DNA of 42,632 nucleotides, taken from IMG/VR virus record IMGVR_UViG_3300046777_000789, positions 1 to 42,632 of that record, one strand, 5' to 3'. The stretch comes from a virus. The notes under the pieces were generated by a model, which was given only the letters and a program-made list of their open reading frames with translations, was not told the DNA's origin and made no database searches. The stretch's first letter is position 1; each line of letters opens with the position of its first letter. The translations under genes and the position numbers were made by a program. Below are positions 1 through 42,632 of the stretch, piece after piece.

Positions 1-73
1 GGTCTTTGGCTCTGACCGGCGTGGCTTTCTCCAGCGCCTCCAGCGCCAGCTTCATTGCTTCACGTTCATTCAT
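1..73 (-). CDS. EPVAW/WVGLT family protein, N-terminal part, cut by window edge
   Basis: An open frame begins with ATG at 73 (ATGA overlap with the stop of the upstream gene) and runs off the left end. The visible 24 residues contain AMKLALEALE, the opening block of a paralogous family found repeatedly in this window. Only the N-terminus is present. If the molecule is circular, its C-terminal half could be the partial gene at the right edge, but the two ends do not join in frame directly. Function of the family is unknown. Confidence 0.7.
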   Translation of the reverse strand, partial: MNEREAMKLALEALEKATPVRAKD

Positions 74-219
74 GATTGCTCCTTAATGCCGTGCGCGGCT
101 TTGATTGGTTTGTAGTTTGTTGGCGGCTTTGCAACCCGCGCAACACAACTCATACAGCGCAGGACACGCTCAACAGTGTTTTCATGGGACGCGTTGCAGC
201 TCTTGCAGTAGTTTTTCAT
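70..219 (-). CDS. 49-aa cysteine-rich mini-protein (copy 1)
   Basis: A 49-residue ORF with ATG at 219 and TGA overlapping the next ATG (ATGA coupling). It holds C5, C8, C22 and C25 as two CxxC knuckles (YCKSC and CMSC), the spacing of a small zinc ribbon. It is nearly identical to the gene at 41284-41433 apart from the last three residues, so both copies arose by a recent duplication. A zinc-binding role is inferred from the cysteines only; no specific function is recognised. Confidence 0.7.
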   Translation of the reverse strand: MKNYCKSCNASHENTVERVLRCMSCVARVAKPPTNYKPIKAAHGIKEQS

Positions 220-378
220 GCTTCGTCCTTACTCTTTTCGGTGCATGTCAGCGAGTTTGTCAATGCCCTCACCCGTCAGCCCCTGCCACGACTTGCTTGC
301 TGGTGGGGATGTGTGAAGTAGCGTTCCTTTTGCTGGCACAGTTTCCAAACGACATTTTTCCGCTATGTCTTGATATGC
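87..378. repeat. Long direct repeat, left copy
   Basis: About 292 bp that match 41301-41592 at a constant offset of 41214 with only about five differences seen by eye. It covers most of the 49-aa Cys-rich gene and the shared C-terminal end of the neighbouring EPVAW-family gene. Similarity stops abruptly at about 379. Confidence 0.9.
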
Positions 379-888
379 CACCGGCTCCTGCACGGGTGCT
401 GTGGGTGGGGTGGTGTAGAGGGGATGAGAGTGATACGCGGTAGGCGTTTCTGACCATGAGTGTGTATCGCCTTGGCCTCCTCTGTTGCGCGTTACTGCTG
501 CGCTTTGAAGGTTGGCGTAGTTCACCCACGCCACCGGCTCCTGCTTCTCAGTTTCTTCAATCGCGGTGCGGAGTGCTTCCGTCCTGCGGTACAGAGATTC
601 AAGAGGCTCGTTCATCACGCCAGCTTTTGGGATTGGAGCTGTCAATGCCTCTTCCCACCGCTTGGCTACACCACGAACTGCATCGTCATGTCCTTTCCAG
701 TATTCGGCCGAATAAAATTCGGCGTCCTCAAGTTGCTCGATGGCGGTGCGGAGGGATGTGATGGCTTGTCGTGTCGCTGAATCTATTTCTCGTGACCCAG
801 TAAACCCAAGCGTGTTTTCCAACGCCTCCAGCGCCTGCTTTATTGCCGCCAACGGCGATACAACATTCTGTTGTGCTTCTATGCTCAT
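229..888 (-). CDS. EPVAW/WVGLT family modular protein
   Basis: A 219-residue protein starting MSIEAQQN at an ATG preceded by AGGAA. Modules in order: an IKQALEALE block near residue 17, an AITSLRTAIEQ block, a second TALRTAIEETEKQEPVAW block, HPLYTTPP, another EPVAY block, and a C-terminal segment ending LADMHRKE that is shared almost exactly with the protein at 41443-41754. It therefore looks like a chimera of family modules. No catalytic motif or membrane segment is visible. Function unknown; the family is, to my knowledge, typical of accessory regions of Burkholderiales phages. Confidence 0.75.
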   Translation of the reverse strand: MSIEAQQNVVSPLAAIKQALEALENTLGFTGSREIDSATRQAITSLRTAIEQLEDAEFYSAEYWKGHDDAVRGVAKRWEEALTAPIPKAGVMNEPLESLYRRTEALRTAIEETEKQEPVAWVNYANLQSAAVTRNRGGQGDTHSWSETPTAYHSHPLYTTPPTAPVQEPVAYQDIAEKCRLETVPAKGTLLHTSPPASKSWQGLTGEGIDKLADMHRKE

Positions 889-896
889 TTCATTTC

Positions 897-1127
897 CTAT
901 ACATGGTCATCAATCAATCTCTGAACTCCTGCTTGGACATCTCCATCTCCAAGTTCTTCTAAGTTCATTCGCTTTATCCTATTCATCTTTACGACTATTG
1001 TCAAGCGGTCTAATTGTTTTTTTCTGCCAGCTCCCTCCCTCTTACCGCCCCATCCCTTGTAGTCGCCTCTTTTCTTCTTCTGATCTTTGATCTGATCTTT
1101 GATCCATTGAGGTAAGGTTTCACTCAT
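897..1127 (-). CDS. Small basic protein with GAGRK motif and RHH-like C-terminus
   Basis: A 76-residue basic protein. It carries GGKREGAGRKK around residues 27-37, a motif seen in many small phage DNA-binding proteins. This is followed by a strand (LTIVVKM) and helices ending GVQRLIDDHV, a pattern that fits a ribbon-helix-helix fold. Its start overlaps the end of rusA by four bases, so it is translationally coupled. A DNA-binding or regulatory role is inferred, not shown. Confidence 0.7.
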   Translation of the reverse strand: MSETLPQWIKDQIKDQKKKRGDYKGWGGKREGAGRKKQLDRLTIVVKMNRIKRMNLEELGDGDVQAGVQRLIDDHV

Positions 1128-1552
1128 CGTAGATCCTCTTTAAGCAATACCTCCACTCCAGGTTCGGTCGCATAGACCTTTGTCATGTGAACATTGGTTA
1201 CTTGATTGTCGTCTTTGTAAACAGTGCCGTTTAGACCATCCATGACGGATTTCAGGATATTGTCGATATCTGGCTTCTTAGAAGGCCTCTCCAAGCCACT
1301 TAAACAGGCTTCTGCGCGCTTTTTGGAGTAGGACTTAGGAATGGGTAGCTTGATGTACAAATAGAGGCTTATGGGAGTTTCCAGGATGTCTGTGTCTCCA
1401 AAGACTTCTTTGGCAGATTGTTTGACCAAGGCTTCATAAGTCTGGGTTTTTTTGTCCGTGTAAGTTGAGACAAAGCTTCCAAACTTTCTGAATCTTGGAC
1501 GCCCTTTGCCATGAGGTTCTCCAGGGATCTCAAACATCATCTGGAAAGTCAT
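1124..1552 (-). CDS. rusA: RusA-family Holliday junction resolvase
   Basis: A 142-residue protein that fits the RusA endodeoxyribonuclease family in length and motifs. There is an N-terminal IPGEPHGKGRPR segment (residues 9-20), and the acidic active-site set KKPDIDN (D95, D97), K101 and D114/D115 in VYKDDNQV. RusA dimers cut four-way DNA junctions symmetrically, which helps resolve recombination and replication intermediates before packaging. It sits in the leftward early operon with ATGA overlaps on both sides, next to a probable DNA-binding protein. It would complement the annealing protein encoded at 5583-6209. Confidence 0.92.
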   Translation of the reverse strand: MTFQMMFEIPGEPHGKGRPRFRKFGSFVSTYTDKKTQTYEALVKQSAKEVFGDTDILETPISLYLYIKLPIPKSYSKKRAEACLSGLERPSKKPDIDNILKSVMDGLNGTVYKDDNQVTNVHMTKVYATEPGVEVLLKEDLR

Positions 1553-2080: not shown

Positions 2081-2288
2081 GTTTTTTATTCCATTGAACG
2101 GTTGTTTTCTCAAGTTGCTTGACAGCTTGTACAAGCTCTTTAAGCGCTTCCAATGTCATAAACATCTCTGAAGTACCTTGCTCAATGGTGTACAAAGGAG
2201 GTTTGTCAGAAGTGCTGTTGATGTCCACACGAACATAAACTTGCTCAAAAGGTTCGTTAGTCACCATAAGTTCAAAGGGTTGAATCAT
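2049..2288 (-). CDS. Hypothetical 79-aa protein
   Basis: The frame is open from 2309, but ATG at 2288 is chosen: it follows AAAGGAAAAAC and overlaps the upstream stop as ACATGA. The 79-residue product begins MIQPFELMVTNEP, has a strand-rich first half, and ends with a helix (LEALKELVQAVKQLEK) and a basic tail. No family recognised. Confidence 0.65.
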   Translation of the reverse strand: MIQPFELMVTNEPFEQVYVRVDINSTSDKPPLYTIEQGTSEMFMTLEALKELVQAVKQLEKTTVQWNKKHESRASKSNP

Positions 2289-2503
2289 GTGTTTTTCCTT
2301 TTCAAACATTGTTCAATCGCTCTAGCAAAGTCATCAAAACCACCACCTTCTTGAGTGTCATCAAAGGCAATGTCTATGTCTTGTTGAGTCAAACCAATCC
2401 ATTCACGTTGTTCTGCAAGTTTTAGTTGCTGATCGTGAATCACACCCCATAGTTTTGTTATCTCTGCCAATAAATGATCTACTGGCTCAATTTCATCGCT
2501 CAT
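2285..2503 (-). CDS. WVGLT-family protein, short form
   Basis: A 72-residue protein that carries only the C-terminal module of the window's modular family: REWIGLTQQDID around residues 33-44, then FARAIEQCLKRKNT at the end. This matches the end of the gene at 41024-41287 (IRAIEAKLKEKNT). The codons are more AT-rich than in the right-arm copies, suggesting an older resident member. It is coupled to both neighbours by ATGA overlaps. Function unknown. Confidence 0.7.
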   Translation of the reverse strand: MSDEIEPVDHLLAEITKLWGVIHDQQLKLAEQREWIGLTQQDIDIAFDDTQEGGGFDDFARAIEQCLKRKNT

Positions 2504-5215: not shown

Positions 5216-5586
5216 AAGCATATAACAACTTCTTGAACATGCTACAGACTCTTCCAAGTCCTAAGCATTTCACTGATCAACCACAAGGGGCTGAGATGGC
5301 AGCAAAAAGTCCATTCATTATTGTCAAAGGTATGCAACCTTGTCTAACAAGAGGATTTGACAAACTTCGAGGAAAGAAAGGAGTAGAGGTCAAGACGGTT
5401 AGAACTCTGGCTGGCGAAGTAATGGAAAGGAAAATGAAGATCGTATTTGTCCAGCAGTATGATCCTGTAGATCGTATCTATGAGGACTTTGGAGAATTCT
5501 GGGCAGACATTGATACTGGAACGTTGTATAGACCGTTTGATGGCGTTTGCATGTCAAGCACAATGATTTGGATGGAGTTGGAATGA
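5212..5586 (+). CDS. Hypothetical 124-aa protein
   Basis: A 124-residue product just upstream of the annealing-protein gene and coupled to it (5583-5586). The middle is basic (KLRGKKGVEVKTVR) and the C-terminal half is strand-rich and aromatic (YEDFGEFWADIDTGTLY). The position hints at a recombination-linked role, but no family is recognised. Confidence 0.65.
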   Translation: MKAYNNFLNMLQTLPSPKHFTDQPQGAEMAAKSPFIIVKGMQPCLTRGFDKLRGKKGVEVKTVRTLAGEVMERKMKIVFVQQYDPVDRIYEDFGEFWADIDTGTLYRPFDGVCMSSTMIWMELE

Positions 5587-6209
5587 GCATTGAAAAGTTA
5601 TTGAAGACCAACGTTAATGAGCACGTTGAAAAGAAAAACAATCTTTCTTATCTTTCGTGGGCATGGGCATGGGCAGAAGCATTAAAAGCAGATCCAGCAG
5701 CATCTTTCAAAGTAGAGATGTTTGACAATAAACCCTTCATTGACATCAATGGAACTGCAATGGTATTTGTCACAGTCACTGTGTTTGGCAAACCAATGAC
5801 TTGTCAATTGCCTGTGATGGACTATCGCAACAAGGCAATTCCTAAGCCAGATGCTTTTGCAGTCAATACAGCCATCATGCGTTGCATGACCAAAGCACTT
5901 TCATTGCATGGTTTGGGACTTTATATTTATGCTGGAGAAGACATTCCAGAAGAAGGAGATGTTCGCCGCAAAGGGGACGCCCCCATCATTACACCCAAAG
6001 GCAGCACAGGAGAAGATCTGCCTGACGAGGAAAAAGAGTTCCTAAGTGAGATGGCAGCATCTTGCGAGGAATTGGTTAACAAAGGACAAGCTGTTGACGC
6101 CTATCAATTGGTTCAATCGGCTGCTCTGGAGTCTGACCAACAAGTGTGGCTGTGGAGTTTGCTGACAGCATCTACACGAGCCGCAATCAAGAAAGCAAAA
6201 GGAAACTGA
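5583..6209 (+). CDS. Sak3-like (DUF1071) single-strand annealing protein
   Basis: A 208-residue protein from ATG at 5583. Residues 21-32 (LSYLSWAWAWAE), then LKADP, are the signature of the DUF1071/Sak3 annealing family. Next come conserved core strands (VFVTVTVFGKPMTCQLPVMD) and a helix region DAFAVNTAIMRCMTKALSLHGLG (first 20 only are core). Such proteins form rings on ssDNA and pair complementary strands in phage recombination. The C-terminal 70 residues are acidic and divergent. It lies directly upstream of an SSB-like gene, its expected partner. Confidence 0.85.
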   Translation: MSIEKLLKTNVNEHVEKKNNLSYLSWAWAWAEALKADPAASFKVEMFDNKPFIDINGTAMVFVTVTVFGKPMTCQLPVMDYRNKAIPKPDAFAVNTAIMRCMTKALSLHGLGLYIYAGEDIPEEGDVRRKGDAPIITPKGSTGEDLPDEEKEFLSEMAASCEELVNKGQAVDAYQLVQSAALESDQQVWLWSLLTASTRAAIKKAKGN

Positions 6210-22383: not shown

Positions 22384-24035
<1,652 letters not shown>

Positions 24036-35588: not shown

Positions 35589-35658
35589 CCTTTCAACCTA
35601 TTGCCTAGCGTGCTGGGCAATGGGGTGCAATGTCGCACCTACTAGCGGAGAATTGAAA

Positions 35659-36039
35659 ATGGTTAATGTTTTTTCTTTGTCTGATGACATCATTGATGTG
35701 CGCGAAATGATCGAGCGCATTGAGGAGCTTGAAGAGCTTCAAGAGCTGGGCGAATACACGGAAACCCCAGACTGTGAACTGCAACTATTAAATGCCATCA
35801 TGGAAGAACTCAAAGGCTATGGCGGCGACGAGCAATGGCGCGGCGATTGGTATCCGATCACCTTAGTGCGCGATAGCCATTTTCAAGACTATGCCCAAGA
35901 AATAGCCGACGAATGCGGATTGACTGACAAGCCCGTGGAATGGCCTTTTACATGCATCGACTGGCAGCAAGCTGCGCGTGAGCTTCGCATGGATTACTCG
36001 TGCATTGACATTAACGGCGTAACTTATTGGTATCGCTGA
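35659..36039 (+). CDS. Acidic protein, possible antirestriction-like
   Basis: ATG at 35659 follows GGAGAATTGAAA and is preferred to the earlier frame start. The 126-residue, very acidic protein has IIDVREMIERIEELEELQEL and QWRGDWYPITLVRDSHFQDY. Its C-terminus, CIDWQQAARELRMDYSCIDI then GVTYWYR, is a pattern I know from plasmid and phage proteins. That C-terminus loosely recalls the DNA-mimic antirestriction proteins (ArdA-type), and the high acidity agrees. This is a guess from resemblance; no function is proven. Confidence 0.7.
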   Translation: MVNVFSLSDDIIDVREMIERIEELEELQELGEYTETPDCELQLLNAIMEELKGYGGDEQWRGDWYPITLVRDSHFQDYAQEIADECGLTDKPVEWPFTCIDWQQAARELRMDYSCIDINGVTYWYR

Positions 36040-36625: not shown

Positions 36626-37000
36626 TTAAGGAGCGCGTAGAAGGTATCTGGTTTTGTTGATCAGATCCTGAATCTCATCAATCAAGTTTTGGATTTCACT
36701 ATCAGGCGGCAAAGTTGTTCGTGCTTCAGTTACATAGTCTGACAGCATATGTAGCTCTTCCTTGGGGTCGTCCAATGGCGGATAGTAGTTAGGCTGAATA
36801 GGTAACTGACATTGATATTTACCCATGATGTTCTCAACCACTGCATCTACCTTTTCTTGCAATCCCTCGTAGAACGCGCCTAGAGTCCTGTGAGCAGGTT
36901 CAGACTTGTCAATGATCCTCCAATGAAGGATGTGAGTGTTAGTGACTGCGTGTAGTAGCGTTTGTGCAAACTCACCCAGGGCTGTTTCAAGGTTGTCCAT
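36626..37000 (-). CDS. DUF5856-like ferritin-fold protein
   Basis: A 124-residue all-helical protein. The segment NTHILHWRIIDKSEPAHRTL, then GAFYEGLQEKVDAVVENIM, matches the DUF5856 family, which looks ferritin/Dps-like (H in HILHW, H in AHRTL, E residues in a helix). Last gene of the leftward operon. Iron handling or DNA protection is possible but unproven. Confidence 0.65.
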   Translation of the reverse strand: MDNLETALGEFAQTLLHAVTNTHILHWRIIDKSEPAHRTLGAFYEGLQEKVDAVVENIMGKYQCQLPIQPNYYPPLDDPKEELHMLSDYVTEARTTLPPDSEIQNLIDEIQDLINKTRYLLRAP

Positions 37001-37367
37001 AGGGTACTCCTAGATGGTCAAGGACGTTCCTGGCGGCTTCGACCTTCCAGGGCTTTAGACATATATTTTCCGCTATTTTCTTCCATTCCTCAATCTGACG
37101 TTGATATGCCACATCCCAGAGTTTTTTCTTTTTTTCTTTTGTCGCCATTCCCTGATCTAGCCAATGGTGGCATGAGTAACACCCCCACACTGTTTTTGCG
37201 TCTGACGCCTTCAGTGCTTTCGCCTTCCCATCCTCCATCAAATTGGAGTGGCAAGGTACGGTTGTCGATCCCATCGTCCCCTGACATCTCGGAGTCGATT
37301 GCAGTAAGCATCTCTCCCCTGCTGCAAGTTTGAGGAGATTGGCATCCCTGTAATTGTTGGAGCGCAT
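36987..37367 (-). CDS. DUF1364 (YbcO-like) putative nuclease
   Basis: ATG at 37367 starts the domain (MRSNNYRDANLLKLAAGERC). The 126-residue protein has C20, C28, C39-H40, C63 and C66-H67-H68, the Cys/His pattern of DUF1364/YbcO, a metal-bound HNH-like fold found among lambdoid nin-region genes. It may act in recombination or replication-fork processing. An overlapping frame on the same strand (37090-37473) shares 278 bases with it. Confidence 0.75.
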   Translation of the reverse strand: MRSNNYRDANLLKLAAGERCLLQSTPRCQGTMGSTTVPCHSNLMEDGKAKALKASDAKTVWGCYSCHHWLDQGMATKEKKKKLWDVAYQRQIEEWKKIAENICLKPWKVEAARNVLDHLGVPYGQP

Positions 37368-37473
37368 ATTTGTATCCAGCCGTCCATTGTTTGTTGTGCG
37401 TATGGCAGTAACCACTAATGTGCTTAGTGATTGCTCCACAAGCTTTGTATTTGCAAAATTCACCTTTCCTCAT
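37090..37473 (-). CDS. Zinc-finger-like protein, overlapping frame
   Basis: Its start at 37473 overlaps the upstream stop (ATGA), which supports translation. The first 42 residues (MRKGEFCKYKACGAITKHIS, then GYCHTHNKQW) have C7, C12, C23 and H26, the layout of a small zinc-binding phage protein. Beyond about residue 45 the frame is shared with the DUF1364 gene and has no visible pattern. The true product may be shorter, or fused by a frameshift to DUF1364. Confidence 0.5.
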   Translation of the reverse strand: MRKGEFCKYKACGAITKHISGYCHTHNKQWTAGYKYALQQLQGCQSPQTCSRGEMLTAIDSEMSGDDGIDNRTLPLQFDGGWEGESTEGVRRKNSVGVLLMPPLARSGNGDKRKKEKTLGCGISTSD

Positions 37474-38516: not shown

Positions 38517-39014
38517 TTACCTCATTAGTGAAAGAAAAGGATGATTGGTGTCTACCCAAGTTTTGTTGCGTCTTACCCTGCTAACCAAGCTTTTGCTAAC
38601 GTTGTATTTTCTCGCCAACTCTGCGCCTGATTCATTAGACGTTCTAAATTCTTGAGCAATTTCTTCGTTAATCTTGCTGGTGTTTTCTCTTCTGTATTTC
38701 TGGAGCTTGGCAATCCTTGTTTTAGATTGATGAGCTTTTTTTCTCAAGACATCCATGTGTTGTTTGACAGTGTAAATCTTTAAATGCTCTGGATTAATGC
38801 ACCCTTTGTGTCCACATGCAGAATGAATGTGTGACTTTTCAGGATAAATCTTTCCTAGTAAATCAAGAATATATCTTTTGACATACACCATCTTTTCTGG
38901 ACCTTGAACACTTGGTACTGAGTTTTGATAGTAACCTTGCCAGATCCAGCATCCTGCATCATCTATTGTTTTGGCTTTTAATGATTCAATAGTATGAATT
39001 GTTTTTTTCTTCAT
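38517..39014 (-). CDS. HNH endonuclease with C-terminal HTH
   Basis: A 165-residue protein with CWIWQG at 22-27 and CGHKGCINPEHL at 67-78, an HNH_3-type zinc/catalytic site. The C-terminal helix-turn-helix NESGAELARKYNVSKSLVSR reads DNA. This composition is typical of a free-standing homing endonuclease. AT-rich compared with the DNA to its right, which suggests separate acquisition. Confidence 0.8.
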   Translation of the reverse strand: MKKKTIHTIESLKAKTIDDAGCWIWQGYYQNSVPSVQGPEKMVYVKRYILDLLGKIYPEKSHIHSACGHKGCINPEHLKIYTVKQHMDVLRKKAHQSKTRIAKLQKYRRENTSKINEEIAQEFRTSNESGAELARKYNVSKSLVSRVRRNKTWVDTNHPFLSLMR

Positions 39015-39220
39015 TCATTACCCCTTGCGCGGATGGCGGCGGCGCATCGCCTAGCCTCCATGTCTTCACGGTTGTTGTCGCCCATGTATCGAGCCTCACA
39101 CACCTTCGCACACGCCTCATGTGCTGCTTCCCAAGCCTCTTGCGCCGCAAGATAGGCAGGATGGTCTGTTGTGTATTTGGCTCTATGCGATGCGTTATAA
39201 AACCATTCTTTAAAGGTCAT
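39011..39220 (-). CDS. Hypothetical Ala-rich small protein
   Basis: A 69-residue protein. HPAYLAAQEAWEAAHEACAK, then RREC-like ARRCAAAIRARGNE, is a pattern I associate with small accessory proteins of Burkholderiales phages. Helical. The start overlaps the second HNH gene by 11 bases. Function unknown. Confidence 0.6.
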   Translation of the reverse strand: MTFKEWFYNASHRAKYTTDHPAYLAAQEAWEAAHEACAKVCEARYMGDNNREDMEARRCAAAIRARGNE

Positions 39221-39698
39221 TTTTTATCCTTTGAATTGCGGCTTTGCGCCCCCTGGCGGCATCAAGAATGTCGGCGCAAGCCTTGCATCGCCGATGACCT
39301 TGCGTTGTGAATCTGGTGTTCTCTGGTGAAAACTCATGGCCGCGATGACAGTGCGTCATTCTTGATTTGCCAATAGTGCAGATGCGCCTTTTCTTTGCCG
39401 CATCTTTCATGTTGTCTGCTCTGTCACCAAGAAACAAATGTTCAGGATTGACGCAAATTCTGTTGTCGCACTTGTGTAAAACCCATAAGCCATTTGGGAT
39501 TGGGCCATGTTTAAGCTCCCATGAAAAACGATGAGCGCCATGACACTTGCGTCCTTCTTCAATCAAATGGGTAAAAAATGCTCCATACCCATTTCCTCGA
39601 ATTGCGCTTCTCCATTCCCAACAATCATTAGCAGCGGTCTTGTCAACCTTCTCCCAGAAACGCTGATCAATTGGTTTCATTGCTCTTTGCTTTTTCAT
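39210..39698 (-). CDS. HNH_3-type endonuclease
   Basis: ATG at 39698 follows AAAGGAGTTTGTC and is chosen over a long upstream extension. The 162-residue protein has CWEW (26-29), GAHRFSWELKHGPIP near 55, and HKCDNRICVNPEHL (75-88), then NMKDAAKKRR. This is the HNH_3 fold of homing-type endonucleases. A second Cys/His cluster (THCHRGHEFSPENTRF, then CKACAD) probably binds zinc. It overlaps the upstream reading frame by 32 bases, so it may have been inserted there. Confidence 0.8.
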   Translation of the reverse strand: MKKQRAMKPIDQRFWEKVDKTAANDCWEWRSAIRGNGYGAFFTHLIEEGRKCHGAHRFSWELKHGPIPNGLWVLHKCDNRICVNPEHLFLGDRADNMKDAAKKRRICTIGKSRMTHCHRGHEFSPENTRFTTQGHRRCKACADILDAARGRKAAIQRIKNDL

Positions 39699-39957
39699 GA
39701 CAAACTCCTTTGTGTTCGCACATTCTAAAGCACTCTGCTGCGGGCTGCAATCTATCACGCTCTGCTGCGGCAATACTACGTTCATACTCTGTCCAGTGGT
39801 CTTGCGTCCAGGTGCGGTTGCGCTCTGCGGCGGCGACAAGGGCGGCAAAGCGTTCAAGTTCTTTCTGGTCAGCAGTCCAAAAATTGTTGTACATGACCTC
39901 TTGAGGTTCTGCCATGCCAGCCTCCCGCGCCATGCGGATGATGTCATCTCTGTTCAT
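39667..39957 (-). CDS. MNRDDIIRMAREAG-type accessory protein
   Basis: ATG at 39957 overlaps the stop of the small TM gene (ATGA). The 96-residue protein has DDIIRMAREAGM, then ELERFAALVAAAERN, a common accessory protein pattern. The C-terminus (CEHKGVCHEKAKSNETN) overlaps the HNH start and may be altered by its insertion. Read directly, this frame is fused to the upstream gene because of a frameshift near 40086. Function unknown. Confidence 0.65.
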   Translation of the reverse strand: MNRDDIIRMAREAGMAEPQEVMYNNFWTADQKELERFAALVAAAERNRTWTQDHWTEYERSIAAAERDRLQPAAECFRMCEHKGVCHEKAKSNETN

Positions 39958-40055
39958 AGCCAATCCACAATCAACGCCACCAGGCACAGGCCCAGCACCA
40001 GAACCAAGGGCGCGCCCAGGCACAGCAGTATCAGCATGGTGATTTCGGGGGTCAT
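39954..40055 (-). CDS. 33-aa single-TM peptide
   Basis: ATG at 40055 overlaps the restored stop of the upstream gene (ACATGA) and the TGA overlaps the next ATG. The product MTPEITMLILLCLGAPLVLV, then a further hydrophobic stretch and a DWL end, is almost wholly one membrane helix. It is in a different frame from the long fused ORF covering it, so it is a separate gene. Confidence 0.6.
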   Translation of the reverse strand: MTPEITMLILLCLGAPLVLVLGLCLVALIVDWL

Positions 40056-40470
40056 GTGTTTCCCCCGTTCTTCTCGCGCAACTTGGTTCTGTTTCAAGCA
40101 CAGCAATCATTTTTGATACGCTATCGTCTGAGATTTGTAGTCTCTCCTCGCCCGTCAGCCCAACCCATTCACGCTGTGGTTGTGGGGTGGTGTAGAGGGG
40201 ATTCCATGCGCCACGTTCTGCGTCTTTTGGCAATTTTTTTCTATAGTGCGCCGTGTTTAACCATTGCCATGCCACCGGCTCCATTTTCTCAGCCTGCTCT
40301 ATGGCGGCGCGGATGGTCTTTGCTGCGTCATGGCACATGCGGCCCACCGGGATGTAGCGCGTGCCCATGCCGTCTGCGTCATCAATCACCAACCTTGCGT
40401 CAGCCGGTACGCTTTCAAGTTGCTCAACCAGCGGCACTTGGTGCGCCTGCTTCATTGCTTCGATGCTCAT
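40052..40470 (-). CDS. EPVAW/WVGLT family protein with frameshift
   Basis: ATG at 40470 (MSIEAMKQAHQVPL) has AAAGAAGAA upstream. Modules: TIRAAIEQAEKMEPVAW, a short linker to LYTTPQPQREWVGLTGEE, then SVSKMIAVLETE. Next, a family-type ending KLREKN(GGN)T-stop is found only after restoring one base (a G before CC, at 40086/40087). Without it the frame runs on into the neighbour and gives a 267-residue fusion. It could be a true mutation or a sequence error. Function unknown. Confidence 0.65.
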
Positions 40471-41027
40471 TTCTTCTTTCCTGTGATGCCGTGTGCGGCT
40501 TCGATGGCACGGGTAAAGCTGATGATTTCGTGGTTTTCTGGCCCATCGCTGCGCGGCCCCCACAACTTCAATGCCTGCTCTCTTGTCAGCGGCTCACGCT
40601 TTGGCTCGTCTTTGGAGTTACACACAGGGCAAACACCCGAGTTCCACGCCTCGTTCTTCAAGGCGTTTAATTGTTGCTCTGGCGCGGCTGGCTGCGGGCC
40701 ACGGTAAAGTGGTACTGTGTATTCGCCTTCAACTCTTGCGTGTTCTTCTGGAGTGATGCAGTCATAGACTTGCCCAGAATCGTTTTCCATACCCCAAGCC
40801 ACCGGCTCATCGGCTGGCTGCTCAAGGGCTTGGCGCAGGGCGGTGATGGCGGCATCAATTTCCCTGTTAGCTTCATCTGCTCCGCAGTTGCATTCATCGC
40901 CAGCGTAATCATTAGCGCAACCGCCTTCCTCTTGCGGGCATGAGTACCAAGTATCCTCACAGTAATAGTGCTTTCGCTTGTTGTTCTCCAACGCCTCCAG
41001 CGCCTGTTTCATTGCTTCTATGCTCAT
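40467..41027 (-). CDS. EPVAW family protein, Cys-rich variant
   Basis: A 186-residue protein. Opening block MSIEAMKQALEALE, then a unique Cys-rich insert (YYCEDTWYSCPQEEGGC; CNCGADE), followed by AAITALRQALEQPADEPVAW. A middle part contains VYDCITPEEHARVEG and VPLYRGPQPAAPEQ, then CPVCNS. The end FTRAIEAAHGITGKKK matches another family ending (AIEQAHGIKE at 41757). Zinc binding is possible. Coupled to both neighbours by ATGA. Confidence 0.75.
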   Translation of the reverse strand: MSIEAMKQALEALENNKRKHYYCEDTWYSCPQEEGGCANDYAGDECNCGADEANREIDAAITALRQALEQPADEPVAWGMENDSGQVYDCITPEEHARVEGEYTVPLYRGPQPAAPEQQLNALKNEAWNSGVCPVCNSKDEPKREPLTREQALKLWGPRSDGPENHEIISFTRAIEAAHGITGKKK

Positions 41028-41033
41028 GTGTTC
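40987..41033 (-). repeat. 47-bp identical repeat, copy 1
   Basis: Identical to 42397-42443. It covers the ribosome site, the start codon and the MSIEAMKQALEALE codons of two family genes. A substrate for homologous exchange. Confidence 0.85.
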
Positions 41034-41287
41034 TTCTCCTTGAGTTTGGCTTCGATGGCGCGGATTGCCCCTTGCAAAGTGCCGTGTTCGTCGGCGATGA
41101 CGTCTATTTCCTCATCCGTCAGCCCAACCCATTCACGCTGTGGTTCTCGTTTGTCAAGTTCTTTGAGCGCATCGATTGCATCGCAAATACCTTCGTTTTG
41201 AGTTAGCCAAGATTCAAAATGCGATTCTTGACCTCTTGCGTCATCCATAGTTGTACGCAATTTTTGGATGATTTCTTTGATGTTCAT
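41024..41287 (-). CDS. WVGLT-family protein, compact form
   Basis: An 87-residue protein with a different N-terminal helix (MNIKEIIQKLRTTMDDARGQ) joined to the family's C-terminal module REPQREWVGLTDEEIDVIAD, ending IRAIEAKLKEKNT. This gives a clear view of the stand-alone module. Its start overlaps the Cys-rich mini-gene's stop. Confidence 0.7.
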   Translation of the reverse strand: MNIKEIIQKLRTTMDDARGQESHFESWLTQNEGICDAIDALKELDKREPQREWVGLTDEEIDVIADEHGTLQGAIRAIEAKLKEKNT

Positions 41288-41433
41288 GCTTCCCCCTTAA
41301 TGCCGTGGGCGGCTTTGATTGGTTTGTAGTTTGTTGGCGGCTTTGCAACCCGCGCAACACAACTCATACAGCGCAGGACACGCTCAACAGTGTTTTCATG
41401 GGACGCGTTGCAGCTCTTGCAGTAGTTTTTCAT
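41284..41433 (-). CDS. 49-aa cysteine-rich mini-protein (copy 2)
   Basis: The second copy of the two-knuckle CxxC peptide at 70-219, identical for the first 46 residues; only the last three differ (GEA). ATG at 41433. It is followed by a gene of different type than copy 1, so the duplication has been recombined into a new neighbourhood. Confidence 0.7.
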   Translation of the reverse strand: MKNYCKSCNASHENTVERVLRCMSCVARVAKPPTNYKPIKAAHGIKGEA

Positions 41434-41592
41434 GCTTCGTCCTTACTCTTTTCGGTGCATGTCAGCATGTTTGTCAATGCCCTCACCCGTCAGCGCCTGC
41501 CACGACTTGCTTGCTGGTGGGGATGTGTGAAGTAGCGTTCCTTTTGCTGGTACAGTTTCCAAACGACATTTTTCCGCTATGTCTTGATATGC
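41301..41592. repeat. Long direct repeat, right copy
   Basis: The partner of 87-378 with about five visible differences. Both copies lie in the same orientation and end at nearly the same point in an EPVAW-family gene. Confidence 0.9.
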
Positions 41593-41754
41593 CACAGTCT
41601 CCTGCTCTGGTTGTGCCAAGGCTTCTCGGATGGCGGTAATGGCTTTGTTTGTTAATACATGGTCATATTCAGCATGACCATATCCCCCGTCATCAACCCA
41701 GTTACAAGATTCCAACGCCTCCAGCGCCAGCTTCAATGCTTCGTCTTTGGTCAT
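41443..41754 (-). CDS. EPVAW family protein, short chimera
   Basis: A 103-residue protein. MTKDEALKLALEALESCNW, then KAITAIREALAQPEQETVAY, is a family N-terminus. From QDIAEKCRLETVPAKGTLLH to the end ADMHRKE it is shared with the protein at 229-888. The exchange point lies in the T/P-V-A-Y codons. Function unknown. Confidence 0.75.
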   Translation of the reverse strand: MTKDEALKLALEALESCNWVDDGGYGHAEYDHVLTNKAITAIREALAQPEQETVAYQDIAEKCRLETVPAKGTLLHTSPPASKSWQALTGEGIDKHADMHRKE

Positions 41755-41756
41755 GC

Positions 41757-42437
41757 TTACTCCTTAATGCCGTGTGCTTGCTCAATAGCGCGGGCAAATA
41801 CATAGGAATCAATCTCGTGATGTACTACCCTAACGCCAGTGTAAATAGCGTCAATCTCCTCATCCGACAACGGCTTGCGATGGGGTGGGGTGGTGTAGAG
41901 GTCAACGATGCGCCGGGCCAGTTCTCTGCGGCTGCGTTTTCCCCCACCTTCATCCCAGTGGATGATGGTTTCGTAGACCGTCTCCAAAGCCACCGGCTCC
42001 TGCTTCGGCATTTCCATCAAACGCTCGTCAGATACGCCTACCCACCCACGCTCTTTTGCGGCCTCATACGCTTCCATTCCTCGCTCGCCAATGCCTACAT
42101 TGGTCTGTGTGAGGGTAAAGTGGCAAAGGCCAGTGCTACAGACAAACTCCTGTGGTTGTGGGGTGGTGTAGAGGGGCCTCAACTTGCGTGACTGCTCAGG
42201 GTATGCCGTATTTAGTCGCTCAAACTCCATCGTTGCCTCGTCTTTGTTCATAAAGACCAGCACAGGGCCATGCGTCCAGATCATCCACGCCACCGGCTCC
42301 TGCTTCTCAGCCTGCTCTATGGCTTGGCGTAGGGAGGTGATTTCTTCATCAAAACAGCCGTCCCATCGTGTTGGTGATTTCCACGACTTAACTTCTTCCA
42401 ACGCCTCCAGCGCCTGTTTCATTGCTTCTATGCTCAT
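41757..42437 (-). CDS. EPVAW family protein, double-module form
   Basis: A 226-residue protein. MSIEAMKQALEALEEVKSW, EEITSLRQAIEQAEKQEPVAW, a unique stretch, RPLYTTPQPQ, a WVGVSDERLMEMPKQEPVAL module, then a second DLYTTPPHRKPLSDEEIDAIY and the end FARAIEQAHGIKE. It therefore carries two copies of the middle/end module, as if by internal duplication. Function unknown. Confidence 0.75.
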   Translation of the reverse strand: MSIEAMKQALEALEEVKSWKSPTRWDGCFDEEITSLRQAIEQAEKQEPVAWMIWTHGPVLVFMNKDEATMEFERLNTAYPEQSRKLRPLYTTPQPQEFVCSTGLCHFTLTQTNVGIGERGMEAYEAAKERGWVGVSDERLMEMPKQEPVALETVYETIIHWDEGGGKRSRRELARRIVDLYTTPPHRKPLSDEEIDAIYTGVRVVHHEIDSYVFARAIEQAHGIKE

Positions 42438-42443
42438 GTGTTC
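42397..42443 (-). repeat. 47-bp identical repeat, copy 2
   Basis: Identical to 40987-41033, again spanning the start region of an MSIEAMKQALEALE gene. Confidence 0.85.
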
Positions 42444-42632
42444 CTTCCTTTAAGTAACGCCTCAACCGCCCGCGCCTTGGCGATGGACAGCCCCAGCGCG
42501 TCAATGTCGTCATAGTCAAGCCCAACCCATTCACGCTGTGCTGCGGGTGGGGTGGCGTGAATAGCTGTGTTGTGCTTCTCCACAATCAAGCTCGCCAGAC
42601 GCTCCGCGAATTCACCCTCCCCGATATATGCG
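42434..42632 (-). CDS. WVGLT-family protein, C-terminal part, cut by window edge
   Basis: The frame is open to the right edge. The visible 65 residues are EGEFAERLASLIVEKHN, then HATPPAAQREWVGLDYDDID, and the end VEALLKGRNT, the C-terminal module of the family; its stop overlaps the next ATG (ACATGA). If the genome is circular, the N-terminal half could be the fragment at 1-73, but the ends do not join in frame. Confidence 0.7.
   Translation of the reverse strand, partial: AYIGEGEFAERLASLIVEKHNTAIHATPPAAQREWVGLDYDDIDALGLSIAKARAVEALLKGRNT

Follow-up and report, generated by a model that had tools for sequence, protein, structure and literature searches.

The stretch of DNA analysed here, hereafter the window, is a phage record of 42,632 nt (42.6 kb) from IMG/VR, where it is classed as linear. 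At both of its ends, and always on the minus strand, it contains small genes built from the same few blocks, referred to as N, M and C, which meet at short conserved anchors (ALEALE, EPVAW, LYTTPP, WVGLTDEE and the C-terminal tail). The nine reading frames of the original prediction are all present on this strand, although not all of them stand as complete and separate genes. The gene at 40052..40470 (degenerate N, then M and C), whose open frame extends to 39667, is not one intact frame, as its canonical tail LREKNGGNT-stop, which ends at 40052, is out of frame with the gene start, and this may represent either true decay or a sequencing error. The frames at 42434..42632 (the 3' portion of an N-C gene that the record end truncates) and 1..73 (a 5' part with the N block MNEREAMKLALEALEK) had been listed separately, and would be the two ends of a single gene if the record is circular. 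A circular join gives the whole N-C gene, but one base off frame, and positions 1 and 42632 probably adjoin, despite the linear class of the record.

Among the other members, the gene at 40467..41027 consists of N and M blocks with a variant C block (RAIEAAHGITGKKK-stop) and has an ATGA overlap with the next gene, while 41024..41287 is a short C-block gene that ends in LKEKNT-stop and whose tail codons contain both AAGGAG and the ATGA at which the next gene starts. The arrangement N-M-insert-M-C is found at 41757..42437, and here the claim that one gene has two middle modules was borne out. At the other end of the window, 229..888 is an N-M-M gene, and 2285..2503 joins an unrelated N-part to a C block (REWIGLTQQDID...FARAIEQCLKRKNT-stop) with a tail that encodes AAGGA and ATGA. 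A further recurrent block, DDIIRMAREAG...LERFAALVAAAERE, which can be joined to M modules and may be another N-type block, is found at 39667..39947 of the window and in two other loci (L019, 5773..6342; L033, 4931..5327).

Exact DNA repeats had been noted at the block edges, and the largest of these is a recent duplication in which positions 69..397 (plus-strand coordinates) are 96-97% identical to 41283..41611, and which is bounded by the HGIKE and EPVA anchors. The 329 duplicated nucleotides start at EPVA in one gene, cover the whole of the next gene and stop at its HGIKE tail, so that one 3' cassette now stands behind two different N parts, i.e., as the 3' half (E(P/T)VAYQDIAEK...MHRKE) of the N-M gene at 41443..41754 and as the 3' part of 229..888. 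The gene spanned by the duplication encodes a 49-aa CxxC...CxxC protein ending in AAHGIKGEA (41284..41433, minus strand; second copy at 70..219, also minus), and this pair was absent from the original prediction, as was the ribosome-binding site within the C block that is described below.

Distribution of the family

Profile HMMs of the N, M and C blocks, trained on the relatives and then run on every frame, recognised eight frames in the window and none of its reversed frames, in agreement with the claim that these frames share common blocks. Across 122 loci, at least one block was found in 222 frames and in no reversed frame, and the window has the highest member number (8), in part because it is the longest sequence compared. 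A search for relatives with the C block returned at least 366 in IMG/VR, of which 80 were retained. A scan with the gene at 41757..42437 reached 33 loci, mostly through partial matches to proteins of which the remainder differs (e.g., 91% identity over 53 residues, or 93% over 46). Many of the loci compared are metagenome fragments, and their sampling sites possibly overlap.

Outside IMG/VR, members occur in 10 contigs from MAGs of uncultured organisms, mostly labelled Comamonadaceae or other beta-proteobacteria, and in a few freshwater phages among 50,697 GenBank records, including complete records from Manatee Spring (Florida) and Dishui Lake (China) with the same anchors and the same tails. 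A search of phage DNA records with 25 kb of the window gave no match, nor did a search of plasmids. The Pfam, PHROGs and NCBIfam libraries gave only chance-level matches to the window proteins, and a family frequent in freshwater viromes is missing from the protein libraries searched. The profile phrog_60 matched 9 of 66 members weakly, with E values no better than 2.3e-4 and, wherever the range was seen, across the M-block region; it is itself an unnamed family, of 461 positions, and has no match in the window. Among genomes belonging to the same family as one host MAG, phrog_60 was found in 0 of 150 and the C-block model in 1 of 299, so that these genes are seldom seen as prophage in that host family.

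Block order and predicted structures

In all 112 of the 112 multi-block frames among the 122 loci, the blocks follow the order N, M (zero to two copies) and C, with the C block doubled in one frame, and it is their number and content that vary. A fixed order in relatives had been named beforehand as one of two grounds for refutation, and given this result the proposal that blocks are joined in different orders and numbers was retained for number, and the shuffled order was dropped. The C block also occurs as the sole block in 82 frames, with varied N-parts ahead of it.

The structure prediction that had been proposed was performed with AlphaFold on the protein of 41757..42437 (66 alignment rows, mean pLDDT 76), and this whole-protein model, which is also the basis for the fold of the M block, has a confident N hairpin, two C helices and loose joints. 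The N block would thus be a helical hairpin, the C block a helix pair, and the M block a small beta-alpha domain, the first copy of which is modelled as a helix flanked by strands, which lie at its EPVAW and its LYTTP end. No significant solved or viral counterpart emerged, given that neither a profile search of the PDB nor a Foldseek search with the model against the PDB and BFVD gave a match at E <= 0.001, and VIA-align returned nothing beyond helical hairpins of a common type, the highest Z being 6.5 for the N block.

Exchange of blocks between genes

The independent recombination of the blocks was examined by comparing block distances, and those of N and C are uncorrelated (Mantel r = -0.09, p = 0.94, 85 genes), with values of 0.09 for N-M and 0.01 for M-C. 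None of the 15 gene pairs with an N identity of at least 0.8 reached this identity in C, and none of the 12 pairs with a C identity of at least 0.8 reached it in N. Exchanged segments, defined as stretches that span 60 nt or more, share 85% identity or more and link genes otherwise unalignable, numbered 139 in a first count and 236 in a wider one. In the wider count, 232 of 329 segment ends lay within 12 nt of an anchor, while 1000 runs with shifted segments placed 90.3 ends at anchors (sd 7.7, maximum 119), although part of this clustering is built in, because BLAST alignments tend to extend into conserved anchors. High-identity segments thus run across otherwise unalignable proteins of different genomes and the block distances disagree, which is the pattern of mosaic genes, and the claim of ongoing recombination at the block edges is strongly supported. 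Agreement between the trees of the blocks, the second ground named for refutation, does not count against it, as the blocks are uncorrelated.

Within the exchanged cassettes, 88 ungapped pairs gave a pN/pS of 0.13 outside the anchors and 0.22 within them, and silent change is lower in the anchors (pS 0.24, compared with 0.31 outside). The proteins are thus under purifying selection, from which it follows that the variety of the family arises by swapping, and this selection on the cassettes argues against mutational diversification.

A mosaic of this kind might also be produced if assemblers had joined unrelated genes at short repeated anchors, a concern that arises because the relatives are mostly metagenome contigs and because misjoins at anchors that are repeated and in frame would preserve open frames. 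It is, however, very improbable that the mosaics are such artefacts, as misjoins would give near-identical copies, whereas the cassettes are mostly 85-97% identical between samples and their pN/pS of 0.13 marks them as old. In addition, complete circular GenBank records of other projects contain these mosaic proteins with identical anchors and tails, and the same cassette is found in two different genes of one contig, the window itself.

Anchors conserved as DNA

The anchors are conserved not only as protein words. Codon choice in EPVAW, LYTTPP, WVGLTDEE and ALEALE is much more uniform than for the same residues elsewhere in the family genes, with ACC in 26 of 26 cases in LYT, GTG in 44 of 47 in EPVAW, and GAG in 27 of 27 in ALEALE. 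A codon-blind scan for WVGLTDEE, in which every synonymous codon was allowed, found 114 distinct sites, of which 63 read TGGGT(T/A)GGGCTGACGGATGAGGA(A/G), and the commonest 24-mer occurred 21 times, compared with 0.03 expected from codon usage. When pairs no more than 75% identical are aligned, their matching residues are encoded by the same codon at 68% of the anchor sites and 48% of the sites elsewhere. Both constant exchange, which would keep the anchors alike, and direct selection of the anchors as recombination substrates fit this conservation.

Constant short anchors with variable inserts had been said to suit host-counter proteins that must diversify, a view in which the anchors would be structural and the inserts would mutate fast to escape or hit host targets. 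The constancy of the anchors was upheld, and extends to their DNA, but the inserts vary by swapping rather than by mutation, given that their point changes are under purifying selection. Diversifying selection of this type would account for the strong variety of the M and C inserts, the several paralogues per phage, the early-operon position and the anti-restriction-like gene that the genome carries at another place, but it would not account for the silent-site conservation of anchors, which protein structure does not require, and it is considered unlikely.

The C-block tail as a ribosome-binding site

The C-terminal tail is read as protein and also carries the signals of the next gene. The tail LKEKNT-stop is encoded by CTC AAG GAG AAG AAC ACA TGA, with the Shine-Dalgarno sequence 8 nt ahead of an ATG that overlaps the stop, and the HGIKE-stop variant, as in 41757..42437, is encoded by ATT AAG GAG TAA, the Shine-Dalgarno of the next gene, followed by GCATG. 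The next ATG overlaps the stop at -4 to -14 in 132 of 170 distinct C-ending genes (at -4 in 92 and at -8 in 29), compared with 426 of 1171 control genes of the same contigs, and AAGGAG is found in 89 of the 170 and 79 of the 1171, respectively. Shine-Dalgarno matches lie inside the C-block codons in 133 of 136 cases, and AAG and GAG are favoured in the last six codons over the interior (p about 2e-28 and 2e-23). A stop that overlaps the next start, together with a Shine-Dalgarno within the upstream gene, is the sequence pattern of translationally coupled genes, and the best reading of these tails is that the family genes form a translationally coupled early operon.

The selection of tail codons as a Shine-Dalgarno and the conservation of anchors as DNA might also be explained if the pieces persist chiefly as a portable ribosome-binding site with recombination homology, the proteins being selfish or neutral passengers, and the 82 frames with C as the sole block behind varied N-parts are in line with this. 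The pN/pS of 0.13-0.22 over all blocks means, however, that the protein sequence matters, and the N and M blocks are kept despite having no ribosome-binding site, which leaves the passenger explanation with a rather low probability.

Genomic setting and a proposed mechanism

In the window, the family genes form one co-directional run with a Cro-like regulator, a primosomal/DUF1376-type gene, RusA, HNH endonucleases, an RNase H-like gene and MazG, and the neighbours across the family are nucleases, polymerases, DUF1376-type replication genes, RusA, MazG and, by eye, Erf-like proteins, the putative Erf-like cluster being recognised by eye in 14 loci. The RusA-like Holliday junction resolvase is encoded in this run (1124..1552, minus strand), and a Sak-like (Rad52-type) single-stranded DNA annealing protein, the candidate recombinase, is encoded at 5547..6209 on the plus strand (phrog_659, 2.4e-51). 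Genes for HNH endonucleases adjoin the array at 36987..37463 and 38517..39014 (by PHROGs) and at 39210..39947 (by eye), and homing-type cutting by these endonucleases could favour exchange. Elsewhere in the window, the protein of 35620..36039 has a modest match to the anti-restriction phrog_2059 (3.1e-9) and a strong match to phrog_25535, of unknown function, and the tail-fibre gene at 22491..24035 contains long arrays of 9-nt repeats (three-residue, collagen-like).

Given these observations, it is probable, to judge from the sequences compared, that gene pieces reassort in an early operon by recombination at DNA anchors. In this scheme, the early (replication and recombination) operon of a freshwater phage would hold reassorting gene pieces, each gene giving a small protein in which up to two M mini-domains stand between the hairpin of the N block and the paired helices of the C block, and the pieces would be swapped between phages, and between the paralogues of one phage, by homologous recombination at the short anchor DNA around ALEALE, EPVAW, LYTTPP, WVGLTDEE and the tail. 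As the position and frame of the anchors are fixed, each exchange would preserve the frame and the N-M-C order, and as a Shine-Dalgarno and an overlapping next start close the C block, it would also preserve the translation of the next gene. The early regions of phages abound in small uncharacterised genes that differ in every genome, and this family would exemplify how they may be remade without breaking their frame, their order or the translation of their neighbours.

It is somewhat more likely than not that the recombinase is the phage's own Rad52-type annealase, a reading drawn from one scanned genome and the neighbours of the family, and recombinases of this type promote mosaicism in phages where the homology is short or diverged (PMC3945230). 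The fixed short DNA words found at each junction would also be expected if the shuffling were done by a dedicated site-specific system (integron-, shufflon- or DGR-like), but such systems usually change order or orientation, whereas the block order is constant here, and a dedicated recombinase or reverse transcriptase was not seen among the scanned subset of window genes, so that this origin of the shuffling is the least credible of those considered.

Within the anchor-based scheme, a more far-reaching and speculative possibility is that the anchors are upheld as recombination sites themselves, with combinatorial gene assembly through a general annealase and no dedicated recombinase. If this is true, it would be an assembly system in which the order is fixed, the parts are freely chosen and the ribosome-binding site is built in, and a conserved C-terminus, in Ea22 and in other early phage genes as well, would be the encoded ribosome-binding site of a swappable gene.

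Comparison with known phage systems

The closest parallel is provided by the Ea22 proteins of lambdoid phages, which are early, mosaic and present in multiple variants (PMC10834534). Like the present family, the Ead/Ea22-like proteins (PF13935; phrog_250 and phrog_368) are early-operon accessory proteins in which the N-terminal part is kept and the C-terminal domains are swapped, with several variants per genome (PMC10834534, PMC7093339), and they share a conserved C-terminal tail that encodes the Shine-Dalgarno of the next gene, as found in the present analysis. By analogy with lambda Ea22, it may tentatively be suggested that the family proteins act early in infection as adaptors, either by binding host targets or by regulating the infection decision, although the balance of probability lies somewhat against this role. 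The family differs from Ea22 in its N-M-C plan, its DNA-conserved anchors and its many more combinations.

Homology to Ea22 was considered and dropped: the PF13935 profile matched none of the 66 members at E <= 0.01, nor any window protein, while lambda Ea22 itself matched at 1.1e-28; the family does not fall within the PHROGs of lambda Ea22 (250 and 368); and the N, M and C block HMMs found nothing in the lambda and mEp460 regions. In the phage DSL-LC05 (L143, 4306..4653), an N block and an EPVAW junction are followed by a tail that resembles, by eye, DUF551, a domain that adjoins Ea22 genes in lambdoid phages.

The significance of the C-terminal (K/R)GE of Ea22 has been stated as unknown (PMC7093339). 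In lambdoid laboratory phages, the Ea22 tail is AAAGGAGAGTGANATG, and in 9 of 11 lambdoid records the C-terminus is KGE or GGE, encoded within AAAGGAGAG, AAAGGAGGTGAG or AAGGGGGA(G/A), so that AAAGGAG or AAGGGG lies a few bases ahead of the next ATG (loci L281, L282, L284-L287 and L289-L291). This ATG begins 1 nt downstream of the Ea22-like stop in seven cases, six of them annotated and one (HK022) unannotated, and in two others it overlaps the stop; mEp460 has KGK with the same layout, and lambda has the motif but no ATG at the corresponding place. As the DNA coding for (K/R)GE stands just before the next ATG, the motif looks like the encoded ribosome-binding site of the next gene, read as protein, which would explain the tripeptide, and no earlier paper making this connection was found in the part of the literature that was searched.

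Other parallels are found in the domain mosaicism of phage proteins, in which protein fragments are still exchanged between unrelated phages, and Smug et al. (2023) expected a further reservoir of mosaicism among proteins of unknown function (PMC10684548). The family is such an expected case, with shared DNA anchors and no detectable linkage between its blocks. Finally, homologous recombination at short conserved junction sequences has been proposed as a cause of phage mosaicism, although boundary sequences are reported not to be identifiable at most mosaic boundaries (PMC3029335). The anchors described here differ in that they lie inside genes and at most of the junctions, and the family thus makes the old idea of boundary sequences directly testable.
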